From a virus, in IMG/VR virus record IMGVR_UViG_3300033233_000141, positions 1 to 28,499 of that record: a stretch of 28,499 bases of DNA; one strand, 5' to 3'. Of this stretch, positions 1,391-25,193 are shown one piece after another. A program made the position numbers and the translations under genes. The notes under the pieces were generated by a model. It ran no database searches, was not told the DNA's origin, and was given only the letters and a program-made list of their open reading frames with translations. How positions within the stretch are numbered: the stretch's first letter is position 1; the number at the start of each line of letters is the position of its first letter.

Positions 1391-1448
1391 TGTCGTTCTC
1401 CGTTCAGTGGTGTTCCGCCATGCACTTCAAGTGGTGGTCGGTGTGAGT

Positions 1449-1460
1449 CGTACAGCGTTG
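1449..1460 (-). repeat. Direct repeat copy 2 inside the non-coding region (pseudo-leader)
   Basis: This is the second copy of CAACGCTGTACG (first copy 918-929). The following bases also resemble the AAA+ gene leader (ACTCACACCGACCACC against GGAGACACACGACCATG), but the GGAG and ATG are lost. It looks like a degenerate duplicate of a translation leader. Confidence 0.5.
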
Positions 1461-1462
1461 CT

Positions 1463-1500
1463 GCGGAGGTGGTCGTCGCGTAACTCGCTCGCACCTCCGC
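1463..1500. repeat. Inverted repeat, 9-bp perfect stem, 20-base loop
   Basis: GCGGAGGTG at 1463-1471 is the exact reverse complement of CACCTCCGC at 1492-1500. It lies inside the gene-free region and is one of several local stems that suggest a folded transcript. Confidence 0.6.
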
Positions 1501-1711
1501 GCCGCGGACCGCAAGCACGGCGCCAGCCGTGTCCCGCAGAACCGCTCGTTGCCAGACTTCCCTCTCGCCGCCCGTCTCCGGTCGGTGCCCAGTCCGCTCT
1601 GCTCGGCTCTCGCCACTGCGGTGGAACAAGTCGTGCGGCGGTATGCGTTGCGCCCGCGCCGCAGCGACCTGCTTTGAGGTACTCCGTCTGGCTTTCCTGC
1701 CCCGGCCTTTC

Positions 1712-1729
1712 GCGGAGGGCATCCTCCGC
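1712..1729. repeat. Inverted repeat, 7-bp perfect stem, 4-base loop
   Basis: GCGGAGG at 1712-1718 pairs with CCTCCGC at 1723-1729 around a 4-base loop. It lies inside the gene-free region 1391-2186. Confidence 0.6.
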
Positions 1730-2108
1730 TCCCGCGCTCCCCTCCGACCTCGTAGGTCATCGGGCACTCCCGCGCGCTCCTGCCGTTGCTCCGGTTGTCG
1801 GAGGGTCGCCGCTTTGGGCTTCCCGCTGTCGCTCCCTCCTCCGCTGCCCGGCGCCCTACCCGGAGGTCGCCGTTACTGCAAGGGGAACTCTGCTCTCCCT
1901 GCCCCGGGCGCACAAGGTATTTTTATGCTTTGCAGGGTGCTCGCTGGAGACCGAGCATGGCTCGGCCAGTTCGTCACGGTGCGCAGCGCGACCGCATGCA
2001 GCTCGGTCTGGCGCGGGCGTCACCAGCGGGGGCAGGTTTGCAGCTGCCACGGCCCCGCAGAACTCCTGTGATTTCAGCACTCGTGCCCATAAGGCCGAGG
2101 AGCACAGC

Positions 2109-2143
2109 AAGGTGCCGCGAGGCCCTCTGGCGGCCTCCACCTT
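2109..2143 (-). repeat. Two-part hairpin just downstream of the glycosyltransferase gene
   Basis: On the minus strand AAGGTG pairs with CACCTT on the outside, and an inner AGGCC pairs with GGCCT, about 45 bases after the glycosyltransferase stop. No U-run follows, so it is not a classical terminator. It could be the first stem of a structured RNA or an mRNA 3'-end stabiliser. Confidence 0.45.
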
Positions 2144-2186
2144 TAGAATGCAGCGGGCCGGGCCGGGGGGCGCCCGGGAGGCCGGG

Positions 2187-3182
2187 CTAGGGCAGCAGCG
2201 CCTCGGTGAACGGGCGTGGGCCGTGCGCTGCCAGCGCGTGCTGCCCCGCGGCCAGTAGCGCCCGGTGGCGCTCAGGCTCCATCCGCCGCATGAGCACGTC
2301 CGCCAGCATGGCGCCACCGGACACGCCGATGCAGTTCACCTCGTCCACCAGCTCGGACTCCGGCAAACCCAGCCACCGTTCAGCCACGACCGGCACGGTG
2401 CACGCGGCCCATGCTTCAAGTGTGGTGAGCTGCGTGCCTCCGCCATCGCCAGCGATTGTGCTCATGTCCACACCGTAGAGCGCCATCCCGGCCATGTACT
2501 CGCCAGCGCCCGGCTGCCGCGGATACGTGCCCCCGTAAAGGCTGCGCCAGCCAGCGAAGTCGGCGTCGAGTTTGTGGTGTGTGTACATCCTGTTCTCCGC
2601 TCCGAAGATGCGGACGCGCGCGCGCTGCGGCAGAACGAGGTTCGCGCGCAGGATGACGTCGGTGTTCTTATCGAAGTCCAGCCGCGAGTACGCGATGGCG
2701 TGGTACTCGCGCTTCGCAGGGGCGCGCGTCAGCCCCGGGACGTACGGCATGGGGACAAAGCTGATGCGAGGGCCGAGGTCGGCCAACAGCCGCTCGTTGC
2801 TGCGCCGGAATACGACGACACGGTTGGCGCGCGCGAGCACGGCGCGACTCTCTGGGCGCAGCTCGGTAGGGTCGTGGAACACTACCGCGGCCCCGTGCGC
2901 GACGAGAGCCTCGGCCTCGCCCCAATGTTTCGGGTCGGTGGCCATGATGAAGGTGTCCGACGCATGGCACAGCTGCTCGGCCGTCCGCAGCGACACATTC
3001 ATATACGGGAACAGCTCGCCGAACATGCGCTCCTTGCCCTCGGTCTTGGCGCCAACGCGGTACACGTGCACGGGGAACCCGCACCGGATGAGTGACTCGC
3101 GCGCGTGGGCGAGCGCTGTGACCCAGCCTCCGTACATGGCCTCAGCGAGGTAGAACAGCGCTACCGGCCTCCGCTTAATCAC
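2187..3182 (-). CDS. GT-B fold glycosyltransferase of the DNA-modification cassette
   Basis: The start is GTG at 3182, overlapping the dioxygenase stop by 8 bases; the product is 331 residues. The N-terminal half (about 1-150) reads as a Rossmann-like domain and the C-terminal half (about 160-331) as the donor-binding domain. Residues 164-176 (AYSRLDFDKNTDV) correspond to the opening strand of that domain. The stretch 246-266 (DGGGTQLTTLEAW..., E256) matches the acidic and glycine-rich nucleotide-sugar-binding segment of GT4-like enzymes. Phage TET/JBP genes are known to be accompanied by glycosyltransferases that decorate hydroxymethylated bases in DNA. Position and overlap make that the best role here. 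The sugar and linkage cannot be read from sequence. It is unlike T4 alpha- or beta-glucosyltransferase in obvious motifs, and a role in glycosylating a virion protein is the main alternative. Confidence 0.8.
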   Translation of the reverse strand: MIKRRPVALFYLAEAMYGGWVTALAHARESLIRCGFPVHVYRVGAKTEGKERMFGELFPYMNVSLRTAEQLCHASDTFIMATDPKHWGEAEALVAHGAAVVFHDPTELRPESRAVLARANRVVVFRRSNERLLADLGPRISFVPMPYVPGLTRAPAKREYHAIAYSRLDFDKNTDVILRANLVLPQRARVRIFGAENRMYTHHKLDADFAGWRSLYGGTYPRQPGAGEYMAGMALYGVDMSTIAGDGGGTQLTTLEAWAACTVPVVAERWLGLPESELVDEVNCIGVSGGAMLADVLMRRMEPERHRALLAAGQHALAAHGPRPFTEALLP

Positions 3183-4080
3183 GAAGGCGCTGCCCCGGCA
3201 GCCTGCCCTTCGCGCGGGCAAGCTCCTGCTCCGCCGTGCCGCAGGAGACCATGTGCTCGCGGTAGTAGAACACGCAGCTGATGCGCTCGAACCGCTTCTT
3301 GTCGCCCACGATGTCGGTGTTGCCGTGCCACTCGTGCACGTCAGCGAGCAGCAGGTCGCGGTTGCCCATGTCGAACGCCACGCGGTACTTCGGCAGCACG
3401 AAGTGCGAGCCCGAGTAGTGCCCCTTGCGGAACACAGTCATCACGCCGAACCCTTCCTTCAGGTCACCTTGGTCCTTGTGAACGCGCGTGGGGTAGTTGC
3501 GGTTCACCGTGATGGTGGTGAACACCGTGCCCGGGATGATGAAGTCCTTGCTCGTGCGGTCGCACACCGAGAGCTGCGCCGCATAGCGTTCCGGCGCGTG
3601 CTCTGCGAACAGACCGTCCACCGTGCGGATGAACGGCATGGCCTCGTTGAACAGGTCGGCGTGGTCCATGTTGAAGGCGGTCGTGCGGCAGTACGGCATG
3701 CGCGAGTAGCGGTCCATGAAGCCCATCACGCCACTGACCGCGTGCTCCATGCCGTGTGCCTTCAGCTCGGACACGCGGATGGCGCTGGTCTTGCTCTTGG
3801 AGCCGTCCGCCTTGATGCGCACATTCGGACGACGCCCGATTGTGCTGATGCCGCGGTTGGTCGGCGCTCCCTCCATCGCGCGGAACACCGGATAGGCGGA
3901 TAGCGTCTGGTCCTCGGGGAGCGCCTCGCGCAGGTACACGGCCAGCAGGCTGCCGTCAGGCTTCAGCAGCTTCACGCTGCGGCGGAACACAGTGTCGTAG
4001 CTCGCGGGCGCGAGACGCGCGCCGCACAGCGCATCGCACTCCTCGTCCGTCATCCGCGGCTCGACCGTGTAGCTCTGCAC
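3175..4080 (-). CDS. TET/JBP-family 2-oxoglutarate/Fe(II) DNA dioxygenase
   Basis: The start is GTG at 4080 with AGGAG about 8 bases upstream, 2 bases after the ParB-like gene's stop; the product is 301 residues. The C-terminal double-stranded beta-helix carries the iron facial triad: H201-K-D203 in TRVHKDQGD, and H252 in DVHEWHGN. R266 (FERIS) is the likely 2-oxoglutarate ligand. Surrounding signatures (VNRNYPTRVHKD, EGFGVMTVFRKGHYSG, LPKYRVAFDM, RDLLLADVHEWHGN, CVFYYRE) are those I know from JBP/TET-type enzymes including phage members. The family oxidises the methyl group of a pyrimidine in DNA: thymine in JBP, 5-methylcytosine in TET and characterised phage relatives. The following glycosyltransferase suggests the hydroxymethyl product is capped with sugar. 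The family call is strong; the substrate (5-methylcytosine more likely than thymine) is inferred. Confidence 0.88.
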   Translation of the reverse strand: MQSYTVEPRMTDEECDALCGARLAPASYDTVFRRSVKLLKPDGSLLAVYLREALPEDQTLSAYPVFRAMEGAPTNRGISTIGRRPNVRIKADGSKSKTSAIRVSELKAHGMEHAVSGVMGFMDRYSRMPYCRTTAFNMDHADLFNEAMPFIRTVDGLFAEHAPERYAAQLSVCDRTSKDFIIPGTVFTTITVNRNYPTRVHKDQGDLKEGFGVMTVFRKGHYSGSHFVLPKYRVAFDMGNRDLLLADVHEWHGNTDIVGDKKRFERISCVFYYREHMVSCGTAEQELARAKGRLPGQRLRD

Positions 4081-4082
4081 GG

Positions 4083-4754
4083 CTACGACTCCTCGTGGGA
4101 TGCACCCGTCTGGAGGTCGTAACACTCCTTCACGCAGTGGCGCACGGTGTCGGTGATGTTCTCGGTGCCGTAGCGGGCGCGCAGCTCCGCCTCCCACTTG
4201 ATGAACTCGGGGTGCGTCACCGTGTCGAGGAACAGCTGCACCATGCGCACGTGACTGGGCTGGAGCGACGGGTCCACAGGCGCCGCGGCCGTAGCCGCGA
4301 CAGCGAGCGGCGCGTTGGGCGCGGGCATGGCGGGCAACTCCAGCACGACGTGCTCGGTGCGTATGCGGTCGAGCAGCTCATCCAGTTCCGGCGAGGACGA
4401 AGCGGCCACTTGCTCCAGCAGCGTGCGCAGGGCGGTCTGGTCGGCCTCGGCCATCTGGCTGATGGGGTCGGCCGCGAGCAGGTACTTGCCTGCCTCCTCG
4501 TCGTCGAGGTCCACGACGAGCACCGGCACCTGCTGGTCCGGGTCCAGCCCGGCGCGCAGGTGCCCGTCGAGCAGCTCCAGTGAGCCATCCGGCAGCTCGC
4601 GTGCGATGAGCGCGTCGGCCCACCCGATTTCGCCAAGCAGGGCACGTACGGCGCTCTGCTGGGCTTCGGGGTGCTTGCGCCAGTTACGCGGGTTGGCCAG
4701 CAGGTCGCTGGCCTTGACGCGTCGCAGCTCCTTGATGCGGTCCTTCGTTTGCAC
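4083..4754 (-). CDS. ParB/Srx-like N-terminal domain protein
   Basis: The start is GTG at 4754, preceded by GGGGAGG at about 6 bases; the long open extension upstream overlaps the membrane-protein gene and is not believable. The product is 223 residues. Residues 10-70 carry the ParB N-terminal fold: LLANPRNWRKHP, then an EIGWADALIA strand and the ParB-box equivalent LLDGHLR (62-67). Residues 175-215 (HVRMVQLFLDT... TENITDTVRH) match a C-terminal segment I know from phage ParB-like proteins found beside DNA methylases. Such ParB-like domains are recurrent members of phage DNA-modification loci and may guide or regulate modification, or act as a nuclease or nucleotidase. Here the gene directly precedes the TET/JBP dioxygenase. 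A chromosome-partition role is unlikely, as no ParA is visible. Confidence 0.78.
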   Translation of the reverse strand: MQTKDRIKELRRVKASDLLANPRNWRKHPEAQQSAVRALLGEIGWADALIARELPDGSLELLDGHLRAGLDPDQQVPVLVVDLDDEEAGKYLLAADPISQMAEADQTALRTLLEQVAASSSPELDELLDRIRTEHVVLELPAMPAPNAPLAVAATAAAPVDPSLQPSHVRMVQLFLDTVTHPEFIKWEAELRARYGTENITDTVRHCVKECYDLQTGASHEES

Positions 4755-21564: not shown

Positions 21565-23770
21565 TGAGCCATTCCTCCAGCGACTGCGGATGCTTGCCGT
21601 TCTTGCTCGGCGCGGCGCCCTTGAGTCGGCGGGCGATGGCGTCGGGGAGCGGCGCGCTCTCCTGCTGCGAGCCATTATCCACAACGGGCACCAGAGTGCA
21701 ACGGCAGTTGATGACCTCGCCCGCATCGTTGCAGTCGGGGTCGCCGGGGAAGCTGAGCCGGGCGCCGCTGCTGCTCACGAAAACGTCATCGAGCGGCACG
21801 GCGGTGCCGTCGAGCTGCTGATGCGTGTCGCGCACGTGCTCGTCGCCCGCCGTGAGCCATTCCTTCTGCTCCACGACACCACTCTGGCGGTAGCCCTCGA
21901 CCGTGCCGAAGTTGAACGCTGCTGCCGTCTCCGTGCGTGCCACACGCGCCGAGCGCGCGAGCCGGTCCCCGAAGATGGCGTCAACGCGCGCGGTCAGGTC
22001 CCCGAGCGACTCGCCCGCGGCGATGCCCTCGGACAGCGCGTCACGCAGCATGCCGCGCGTGGTGTCGTCAATGTTCTGCACCATCGTCATGGCCTTGTCC
22101 GCGATGAACGAGTTCACGTCGGCAGCATGCAGCGAGAACGCGAGGTCCAGACCCAGCCCAGCGATTGCGTCGTCTCCCGCGTCGGACACGATGCCCCGCA
22201 CGAGGCGCCGCGCCTTGCGGATGGCGTCCGGGTCGTCCAGTTCGCGGATGATGTCGTCGAGTTCCCACGAGCGTGACTGCTCTTTGAGCTTGCTGACCAC
22301 ACGGCGCTGTTGTGCAGCGAAGTGGCGACGCGCGAAGACGTTCACGCGACCCTCGTGCGCGCGGAGGCGCCGGTCTGCCCGCACGCGCGCAAGCTCCGCG
22401 CGAGCGCGCTTCTCCTCAGCGGTGCGCGCCTTGGCGACAGGCGGTGGCACGGGCGCCTTCGGCAGGATGACGGGCGCGGGTGGGTTCTCGGCGTTCTTCA
22501 CGTCGGCCTCGGCCATGGCGCGCGCACTCATGCTGTCGGTGAGCGTCGTGGGCACGAGGATGTCGTCGAGACCCTCCGCCTCCGGCCGCGGCGGCAGACC
22601 CTGATGGTCGCGTGCCTCGGCGCGACTCACATGCGGAGCGCCCGTGGCCTTGTTCCACATTTCGGCCTGCTTCAGCCAAGCCTCGACCATCACGGGGTCG
22701 TTGCTGAAGTCGAACTCGCAGCTGATGTTGAAACCGAACTCGCCCGAGCCGAGCAGCGCCTCGTTCAGCTTCTTGCTGATGCGCATGGCTGCGGGCATCA
22801 CGCCGAAGCGAAGGAACAGCATCATGCTCACCTGAGCCACGTCCGAGTTCAGGCCCGTGCCGCCCTCCATGTCACCGGCCAGCATGGGGGGAATCTTGAA
22901 CAGCTTGTACATGTGCGCGGCCGTGAGCTTCTCGCTCTCGATGAACTGCATTTCCTCCATCGTCAGGCCCGCGCGCGTGAACGCCAGCTTCTTCGGCAGG
23001 AACACCGGGTCCCACGAGTTCTCGATGCCCTGATAGCGCGACTTGAACTGCTTCTTCAGGCGCTCCACGTCATCGTCGTCGAGGGAGTTCTCGGTGGAGT
23101 AGTGGCCCGCGACCATGCCGCCCTTCTGGTAGAACAGCCGCAGGAAGCGCGCGCTGTCGCGCTGCGTCTCGTACGCGAGCCGGAGTGCCTGAAGGCGCGA
23201 CACGCCCACGGCGGCCATTTCCGGGTCGTACCGCTTGAAGTGCACGATTTGGATGCGCGGCACCTTGATGACCTTGCCGCCGTCCTGCACTTCGTACTCG
23301 ACCACGCCACGGCCGGGGCCACGCACCGGCTTCACGCTCGCGGGGTTCAGCATCCAGAACTGCTGGACCTTTTGCGTGCCCATGTAGTCCTTGAACAGGT
23401 AGGCGTTGCCGAACAGCTCCAGCGAACCGACGAGGTCCTCGGTCAGCTCGTAGCCGGTCTGCTCGATGTTCGCTGCCTCCCACAGGTCGCAGATGTTGCC
23501 GGGAGCGCGAGGCAGTTCCTTCTTCGTGTCGCCCTCGCCCACGTACCACTTGAGCGGGGTCGCTGCCAGCGTGGACTGGTACAGCTCGACGCAGAACTGC
23601 ACGGTCGGCACGAGGCGGTACGCCCACGGGTAGTCCACCGCTTCAGCGGGCAGGTTCCATGGCCGATTCAGCAGCCACGGCGCGCCGGACGGCAGGTCGC
23701 CAGCGCTCACGAGGCGCGACTGAATAGGCGCGAGCGCGCGCGCGATGGACCGGACCACCAGACCGCTCAC
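21557..23770 (-). CDS. Portal protein fused to MuF-like head morphogenesis domain
   Basis: The start is GTG 23770, sharing a base with the upstream TAG (TAGTG) and preceded by GGAGG at 5-6 bases. The product is 737 residues. Residues about 30-400 are an HK97-type portal (VPTVQFCVELYQSTLAATPLKWYV, QFWMLNPASVKPV, IVHFKRYDPEMAAVGVSRLQALRLAY, FKIPPMLAGD). A Pro/Ala/Arg-rich linker (about 425-475) leads to a MuF/SPP1 gp7-like domain at about 560-695: RVARTETAAAFNFG (609-622), KEWLTAGDEHVRDTHQQLDG (636-655), PGDP (675-678) and NCRC (688-691). MuF domains are minor head proteins that enter with or process DNA at the portal. Fusion of both on one chain means one MuF copy per portal subunit. Confidence 0.92.
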   Translation of the reverse strand: MSGLVVRSIARALAPIQSRLVSAGDLPSGAPWLLNRPWNLPAEAVDYPWAYRLVPTVQFCVELYQSTLAATPLKWYVGEGDTKKELPRAPGNICDLWEAANIEQTGYELTEDLVGSLELFGNAYLFKDYMGTQKVQQFWMLNPASVKPVRGPGRGVVEYEVQDGGKVIKVPRIQIVHFKRYDPEMAAVGVSRLQALRLAYETQRDSARFLRLFYQKGGMVAGHYSTENSLDDDDVERLKKQFKSRYQGIENSWDPVFLPKKLAFTRAGLTMEEMQFIESEKLTAAHMYKLFKIPPMLAGDMEGGTGLNSDVAQVSMMLFLRFGVMPAAMRISKKLNEALLGSGEFGFNISCEFDFSNDPVMVEAWLKQAEMWNKATGAPHVSRAEARDHQGLPPRPEAEGLDDILVPTTLTDSMSARAMAEADVKNAENPPAPVILPKAPVPPPVAKARTAEEKRARAELARVRADRRLRAHEGRVNVFARRHFAAQQRRVVSKLKEQSRSWELDDIIRELDDPDAIRKARRLVRGIVSDAGDDAIAGLGLDLAFSLHAADVNSFIADKAMTMVQNIDDTTRGMLRDALSEGIAAGESLGDLTARVDAIFGDRLARSARVARTETAAAFNFGTVEGYRQSGVVEQKEWLTAGDEHVRDTHQQLDGTAVPLDDVFVSSSGARLSFPGDPDCNDAGEVINCRCTLVPVVDNGSQQESAPLPDAIARRLKGAAPSKNGKHPQSLEEWLNA

Positions 23771-25071
23771 TACAACCTCCGCTGCTGCGGCGACTGCGCG
23801 TGGGGCTTCTCGACGAGGAACACGGCATCGTAAGCGGGCACGAGGAACCGGCGCTGGCTGTCGCCGCCGCGGTTGGAGTATGGGTCACGGACGCCGTAGA
23901 TGCCATACCAGATGTCGGTCGCGCCCAAGTCCACCCACCGCGGCGAGGAGGAGCCGTTCAGCAGGACGGCCCCATGCGGGAACTTGCGGATGAGGACCCC
24001 GCTGCTGTCCGTGTAGGCCGGTCCGGCCTTCTCCCCGAGCCAACCCGAGTGCATGCCGCTCAGGTCCGTGCGCCGCGCGTACCAGCCCGCCACGCTCCGC
24101 TCGTCGTACGTCCACGCGAGATAGGTCGGCGTGCCAACGAGGTCGCGGTCGGGGCCGAAGCATGCGTACCCATCGCCCATACACGCGCAAGCGAGGCCGA
24201 ACCGCTGCATGCGGCACGCGTCGGCCGTGTACGCGCCGCTCCACCCGCCCTCCACCTTGATGATGCTGAACGGTCCGGCCGCGAGGTAAGCAGTCATGGA
24301 TGGGCCGAAGCCACCGCGGGCGCTGGGCCAGCTCTCGAACATGTCGCCGTCCCATAGCGCGCGCTTCGTGCTGTCGGGCGTGGTGCCGTTCCCGACGAAC
24401 AGCATCTGCGGGTAGGAAGCGCGGAGCCGAGCGAAGAACGCGGTGAGGTTCGCCACGCGCGCGCTGTCCATGGCGGCCATGGTGGTGAAGCCCGCGCGGT
24501 GGTAGTCAATCGTCGCGCCGGTCGCACTGTGTGCCCACCCCACGTAGAAGTCCGCGAAGTCGAAGAACGCGCCATCGAGACCCGGGGTCCAGAGCACGTT
24601 GTAGAGCCACGCGTCGCCGAGCTGCATCACCAGCACCTTGTCCGCGAGGTTGGGCCATGGGCTGCTGGAATCGGGGAACAGCTTGCCATCCGTTCCGTAG
24701 AGCAGCTTGCTGCTGACGAGAGCCCACTCGGCCGCCCACTCGTTGTTACCCCCGTAGGGGAACCGCTGCCCGAGCAGGTCGTACGCGAGCACCTTGAGCT
24801 TCGGGTTGTACGACTTGAGCAGCTCGATGATGTGAACGCGCGGCGTCCCCGTGAAGGGCACCACGTTCAGCGTGATGATGTCGTGCGTCTGCGCCATCGT
24901 GCGCACGAGAGCCGAGTCGAGCGTGCCGTCGGGGTTCACGACGGGCCAGCCGGTGCCCTTCGTGGCCGCGTACAGCGCCGAGTGCGGATATGGAGCAGCA
25001 TGCGCGGAGCAGCCACCGAGCAACACCCAGCAGAGGGCCATCGTGAACACGGCGCATTGCCACGGCTTCAT
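23770..25071 (-). CDS. Lipobox-bearing secreted protein resembling a glycoside hydrolase (GHL15-like)
   Basis: ATG 25071 overlaps the small membrane-protein stop (ATGA) and has GGAAGG 7 bases upstream. The 433-residue product starts with a signal sequence ending in the lipobox LLGGC (C21), so it is probably a lipoprotein. The mature part reads as a TIM-barrel like hypothetical glycosyl hydrolases: ITLNVVPFTGTPRVHIIELLKSYNPKLKVLAYD, then GLDGAFFDFADFYVGW (D166, D171, D174), LFVGNGT, FESW (E246), SIIKVEGGW (E274) and a C-terminal beta part after about 355. This set of acidic residues at strand ends is consistent with a hydrolase. Its position between terminase and portal is unusual. It may modify the host envelope, for example capsule or O-antigen. 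Enzyme activity is inferred. Confidence 0.65.
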   Translation of the reverse strand: MKPWQCAVFTMALCWVLLGGCSAHAAPYPHSALYAATKGTGWPVVNPDGTLDSALVRTMAQTHDIITLNVVPFTGTPRVHIIELLKSYNPKLKVLAYDLLGQRFPYGGNNEWAAEWALVSSKLLYGTDGKLFPDSSSPWPNLADKVLVMQLGDAWLYNVLWTPGLDGAFFDFADFYVGWAHSATGATIDYHRAGFTTMAAMDSARVANLTAFFARLRASYPQMLFVGNGTTPDSTKRALWDGDMFESWPSARGGFGPSMTAYLAAGPFSIIKVEGGWSGAYTADACRMQRFGLACACMGDGYACFGPDRDLVGTPTYLAWTYDERSVAGWYARRTDLSGMHSGWLGEKAGPAYTDSSGVLIRKFPHGAVLLNGSSSPRWVDLGATDIWYGIYGVRDPYSNRGGDSQRRFLVPAYDAVFLVEKPHAQSPQQRRL

Positions 25072-25193
25072 GTCTTGGCCTTCCGCGCGATGGCGTCGGC
25101 CATCACATTGAACACGAGCCATCCGGTGAGGGCCAACGCCGCCACGACCAGCAGCGCGGCCCCCACCGCCACGACACACAGGAACAGCGTCAC
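25068..25193 (-). CDS. Tiny single-TM membrane protein (41 aa)
   Basis: The start is GTG 25193, overlapping the preceding TGA (GTGA), and the stop overlaps the next ATG (ATGA). I translated it directly: 41 residues, with one hydrophobic segment at about 2-30 (LFLCVVAVGAALLVVAALAL, then TGWLVF) and a basic tail (ADAIARKAKT). Coupled overlaps on both sides and a clean membrane segment make it convincing in spite of its size. It directly precedes the lipobox protein and may assist its function, or be a small lysis or envelope-acting protein. No family recognised. Confidence 0.7.
   Translation of the reverse strand: MTLFLCVVAVGAALLVVAALALTGWLVFNVMADAIARKAKT

Follow-up and report, generated by a model that had tools for sequence, protein, structure and literature searches.

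Phage systems in which a TET/JBP dioxygenase is accompanied by glycosyltransferases were reportedly predicted by Iyer et al. in 2013 to hypermodify DNA, and Burke et al. are said to have shown phage TET activity in 2021, in C5-cytosine hypermodification. A sugar-bearing base, base J, occurs in trypanosomes. Work on phage TET hypermodification is summarized in PMC12730594 and PMC11404850, and systems of TET plus glycosyltransferase are already known in phages, both by prediction and by experiment. The hypermodified bases of phages PhiW-14, M6, and ViI derive from 5hmdU, and these phages are thought to bring in 5-hydroxymethyluracil (5hmU) at the nucleotide level (PMC6449724); glucosylated 5hmdU in phage genomes was stated in 2019 to be unreported (PMC6449724).

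The locus described here lies in an IMG/VR viral record of 28.5 kb, possibly a fragment; this whole stretch is referred to as the window. As in the phage TET/JBP systems, a TET-fold dioxygenase is joined to a linked glycosyltransferase (GT), and a base would be hydroxylated in DNA and then capped. The window and nearly all of its relatives differ in that no C5-methyltransferase was found in them, and the window is further set apart from those systems, as reported, by a GT of the GT-B type rather than a TAGT and by a ParB-like partner encoded directly upstream. The proposed order of reactions, from thymine through 5hmU to glycosyl-5hmU within DNA, is that of kinetoplastid base J (JBP1/2 and JGT), whereas the window has phage genes, a GT-B enzyme, and no J-binding domain that we could see. 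With M6, ViI, and PhiW-14, the locus would share 5hmU as a chemical handle, and amino acid:DNA transferases (ADDT) are common to many of its ParB-TET relatives; those three phages have a PF00303-family enzyme, whereas TET phages lack it and would form 5hmU in place. New here are a near-obligate ParB partner, a TET-linked GT-B family, a third gene that has been exchanged repeatedly, and a case from gene content for thymine.

A three-gene cassette in a tailed-phage record

The remaining genes of the window make up a normal tailed-phage complement (terminase, portal, capsid, tail, and lysis). The features discussed below are as follows.

4083..4754, minus strand: ParB-like protein, 223 amino acids; GTG start, TAG stop; assigned by PHROG families and a profile of TET-linked ParBs
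3175..4080, minus strand: TET/JBP-type Fe(II)/2-oxoglutarate dioxygenase, 301 amino acids; GTG start at 4080; assigned by Pfam, AlphaFold model, and TET2 motifs
2187..3182, minus strand: GT-B-fold glycosyltransferase, 331 amino acids, predicted DNA glycosyltransferase; GTG start at 3182; assigned by AlphaFold model and linkage to ParB and TET
1391..2186, no strand assigned: ~800 bases that lack a coding signal and may be regulatory or untranslated; flat GC by codon position

The first-pass annotation had described a cassette of three genes spaced 2 bases apart or overlapping by 8, and these values are exact: the cassette runs on the minus strand from 4754 to 2187, with the TET start codon 2 bases past the ParB stop and an 8-base overlap between the GT and TET genes. 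All three genes look truly coding because their GC content at codon position 3 is 0.86 to 0.91, compared with flat values of 0.63 to 0.74 across codon positions in the open reading frames of 1391 to 2186.

The dioxygenase is a TET/JBP enzyme

By profile, active-site residues, and fold, the window dioxygenase (P0002) is a real TET/JBP enzyme. It matches the Pfam family Tet_JBP (PF12851) with 86.7 bits against a curated cutoff of 34.9 (E = 1.3e-24). The iron triad and 2-oxoglutarate arginine that had been read from the translation (H201, D203, H252, and R266 in the 301-amino-acid numbering; 203, 205, 254, and 268 in P0002) are present; the HxD...H ligands and the arginine are invariant in an alignment of 43 members, and a profile alignment matches the catalytic residues to the TET2 motifs HRD, ELHATTP, and TRISLVFY. 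Structure prediction, which had been suggested as a check, likewise gave a TET fold. The AlphaFold model (pLDDT 89.9, pTM 0.87) retrieved NgTET1 first in Foldseek (6.6e-14), and the first 16 matches in VIA-align were TET2, CMD1, NgTET1, and CcTET (Z 22.3 to 18.0), with the next family at Z 13.9; TET2 was the closest structure (Z 22.3 over 265 amino acids). Searching the PDB by sequence with each of the three proteins alone returned nothing usable. The predicted activity of the window TET is oxidation of a 5-methylpyrimidine in DNA. In the phage records MN698246, KU682439, KF301602, and MG450654, TET/JBP genes are labeled "SNF2 DNA repair protein" and are therefore missed by name searches.

The ParB-like protein and its pairing with TET

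A scan of IMG/VR with the window TET found at least 582 relatives, the closest of which were used for neighborhood counts. Among these, with loci cut by a contig edge excluded, 82 of 84 have a ParB-like gene no more than 250 bases upstream of TET, mostly overlapping it or separated from it by a few bases, and a ParB-like gene likewise stands beside TET in Pelagibacter phage HTVC112P. The ParB-TET pairing is near-obligate among the closest viral relatives, beyond chance, a far stronger tie than the first-pass annotation could have seen from the sequence. The distant TETs of P12024L, DLP_6, and Cr30 have no adjoining ParB, and the pairing is therefore a mark of the window's TET clade. We found no literature linking ParB with TET phages.

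The window protein (P0001) matches PHROG 620 (ParB-like; 1.6e-11), PHROG 498 (DNA methyltransferase; 7.3e-12), and a profile of TET-linked ParBs (2.7e-12). The ParB-like N-domain proposed in the first-pass annotation is upheld by the PHROG 620 match, though P0001 itself has no match in Pfam; its relatives match PF02195. The matches of P0001 are confined to the ParB N-domain region, with those to DNA-methyltransferase families falling over that same region, and in alignment a C-terminal segment (VQLF...YGTxNxTDTV...C) is common to the TET-linked ParBs. A search of the window record for HTH_3 gave no match. In the window protein (4083 to 4754) the GHxR motif is kept and ADPISQ stands in place of the relatives' ADNRVNE, so that the usual nucleotide-binding region seems partly changed; since the relatives' DNR segment is missing, nucleotide chemistry may be lost.

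Sibling phage G045, which has the same gene order as the window and a portal protein 68% identical to the window's, encodes a ParB_N-N6_N4_Mtase fusion in the slot of the cassette, after the lysis genes (L119:17239-18558). Such phage fusions resemble the window pair in coupling a ParB-like domain to a DNA-modifying enzyme, and they differ in that the enzyme is an amino-methyltransferase and the ParB is fused rather than separate. In the Tet_JBP search of sibling phages, the absence of TET is firm only for G045, in which the slot was read directly. The presence of this fusion in the slot argues for the ParB-like domain as a general partner of DNA-modifying enzymes and suggests that the window ParB is a DNA-modification partner as well.

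A glycosyltransferase linked to ParB and TET

Pfam gave only a sub-threshold match for the third protein (P0003; E = 1e-3). Its AlphaFold model (pLDDT 83.3, pTM 0.85) shows a clear full-length GT-B fold, with two Rossmann domains and an NDP-sugar site, and confirms the GT-B glycosyltransferase named from the sequence in the first-pass annotation. The best matches of the model include HepE (Z 25.5), HepE with UDP-Glc (Z 25.3), PimA, and TarM, and many GT4 structures scored Z > 21; a conserved segment reads D-G-x-G-x-Q-x-T-x-L-E-A. The T4 DNA alpha-glucosyltransferase (AGT), in its structure with HMU-DNA, shares the GT-B fold (Z 23.2 over 316 residues) and differs in sequence (12% identity). Z scores do not set this AGT match apart from GT4-type enzymes with other acceptors, and a DNA substrate is therefore unproven by fold alone.

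The linkage of the GT gene is more specific. A search of IMG/VR from P0003, in which TET was not used, found three viral homologues (L091, L100, and L101), and in 3/3 the GT adjoins ParB-like and TET genes, a case that comprises four sequences only. From this linkage to TET, the GT is predicted to act on a 5-hydroxymethylpyrimidine in DNA. No homologue was matched in 50,697 phage records, and the TAGT profile (PF20691) did not match P0003; TAGT instead fills the slot in relatives. A radical SAM gene separates GT and TET in L101, where genes for ParB, GT-B, a radical SAM/SPASM protein, and TET stand in a row just ahead of the terminase genes (L101:5276-8869). The radical SAM enzyme may contribute an extra step in that phage.

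Swapping of the third gene

The first slot after TET is occupied by class II glutamine amidotransferases in 31 cases, often with a GNAT gene next, by TAGT glycosyltransferases in 19, by FkbM methyltransferases in 8, by the ADDT group in 5, and by P-loop kinases in 4, the others being GT-B enzymes and singletons; these groups were built by BLAST, and representatives were checked with Pfam. On the TET tree, the third slot was swapped at least 18 times versus a minimum of 5, a count that is approximate, as the tree was built quickly and has long branches. A natural one-protein TET-TAGT fusion is encoded at L019:941-2650, with a ParB-like gene ahead of it. At L026:5355-9268, genes for ParB, TET, a class II amidotransferase, GNAT, ADDT, and a P-loop kinase lie within ~4 kb, a run that is a possible pathway to an amino-acid-decorated base. 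The third genes of L016-L020/L046 and L073/L074 had been read by eye as GT-B, and Pfam gave no support to this reading.

Thymine or 5-methylcytosine as substrate

Gene content was compared across 44 TET-phage records (42 from IMG/VR plus HTVC112P and P12024L). ADDT occurs in 18 of the 44, and PF00303 (thymidylate synthase and hydroxymethylases) in 0 of the 44, most of which are fragments; in the control phages PhiW-14, M6, and ViI, both are present (3/3). The simplest reading of this pattern is that TET makes 5hmU in place from thymine. The genomes nearest to the window by TET include the ADDT-bearing L015 and L036, and the GT-bearing members of the family have no ADDT, the ADDT and GT genomes being different members. 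Given the fragmentary records and these GT members without ADDT, the argument by association puts thymine at about two chances in three, with 5-methylcytosine (5mC) the less likely substrate. The first-pass annotation had claimed glycosylated hydroxymethyl-pyrimidine DNA for this phage. The cassette part of that claim is supported by the folds, the ParB-TET conservation, and the GT linkage; the pyrimidine had been left open, and gene content now points toward thymine. The annotation's single capping glycosyltransferase is a count from a genome that may be partial.

The competing route runs through cytosine: a C5-methyltransferase of the phage or its host would make 5mC, TET would convert it to 5hmC, and the GT would glycosylate the product. 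The structural matches of the window TET speak for such a route, as NgTET1, TET2, and CMD1 act on 5mC, and so does the biochemically studied phage TET, which acts in C5-cytosine hypermodification. A C5-cytosine methyltransferase (PF00145) is found in 2 of the 44 TET-phage records (L026 and L060), and one is present in the Actinomadura genome that holds prophage L095. However, both of these phage records also hold ADDT, and no such enzyme was found in the complete HTVC112P and P12024L genomes or in the window, itself possibly a fragment. Nor was any found, even at E ≤ 10, in the whole 4.7-Mb genome of the host Haloechinothrix alba, which carries a ParB-TAGT-TET prophage. We therefore regard the cytosine route as unlikely, yet as a serious candidate.

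Proposed mechanism and alternatives

We consider it fairly probable that the three genes form a post-replicative DNA-hypermodification cassette in which TET hydroxylates a pyrimidine, likeliest thymine, the GT-B enzyme glycosylates it, and the ParB-like protein partners TET. The genes, folds, intact active site, ParB-TET pairing, GT-TET linkage, and third-gene swapping are computed results; activity on DNA, thymine as the target, the way the sugar is linked, what ParB does, and protection of the genome are inferences. TET would hydroxylate the 5-methyl group of the pyrimidine in phage DNA, most likely turning thymine into 5hmU, and the GT, probably a retaining (alpha) enzyme like its closest folds, would move a sugar from an NDP-sugar to the 5hmU hydroxyl. 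The product would be a base-J-like glycosylated 5hmU that may block enzymes of restriction and repair. As the partner of the dioxygenase, the ParB-like protein would probably load TET on phage DNA or steer it along.

Other functions can be imagined for each of the three proteins. The GT might work on a surface polysaccharide or a protein and stand next to TET by chance or through shared regulation, since its fold is a generic GT-B that has HepE, PimA, and TarM among the best matches and is equally close to transferases for small molecules and for polysaccharides. All three viral homologues adjoin ParB and TET, however, and relatives carry TAGT or ADDT in the slot, with one TET fused to TAGT, so a non-DNA acceptor is very improbable. 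The ParB-like annotation, together with ParB_N in the relatives, could likewise point to a partition protein of a plasmid-like prophage, unconnected with modification. That is barely plausible for a gene found directly upstream of TET in nearly all of the closest loci, whose counterpart in the cassette slot of G045 is fused to a DNA methyltransferase and whose own ParB region also matches DNA-methyltransferase families; moreover, no ParA was recognized among the annotated genes of the window. An eraser of methyl marks, of host or defense origin, rather than a builder of a hypermodified base is what the example of eukaryotic TETs might suggest, since these erase 5mC and iterative oxidation is known chemistry. 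Scarcely any weight falls on this reading, as the downstream slot holds group-transfer enzymes in most assigned relatives, and such partners require a lasting hydroxyl.

Beyond the hypermodification cassette, we tentatively propose a phage counterpart of base J synthesis, in which a ParB-guided TET would hydroxylate thymine in place and a TET-dedicated GT-B enzyme would cap the 5hmU. The window would then be one member of a large plug-in family, with ParB and TET as the constant makers of the handle and the third gene setting the decoration. If thymine is the substrate, 5hmU would arise in DNA with the thymidylate pathway left in place, and phages would possess a DNA mark resembling base J. 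The ParB protein that nearly always accompanies TET offers a concrete system for studying the loading and movement of in situ modification enzymes on DNA. The swapped third genes supply candidate enzymes for decorating DNA (with amino acid, amidotransferase-linked, methyl, or sugar groups) that could serve as tools.

Other features of the window

The stretch from 1391 to 2186 lies directly downstream of the cassette in a genome that is otherwise tightly packed, and its belonging to the cassette is a guess. An Rfam scan of the window matched a tRNA only, with none in 1391 to 2186, and no convincing inverted repeats were found near the cassette. Farther downstream, at 2 to 994, the window encodes a MoxR-type AAA ATPase; the MoxR-type ATPase of sibling G045 is 33% identical and lies on the opposite strand relative to the G045 structural genes. 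Between terminase and portal, at 23770 to 25179, is a gene for a weak GHL15-type glycosyl hydrolase-like protein, of which low-identity versions occur in sibling phages.
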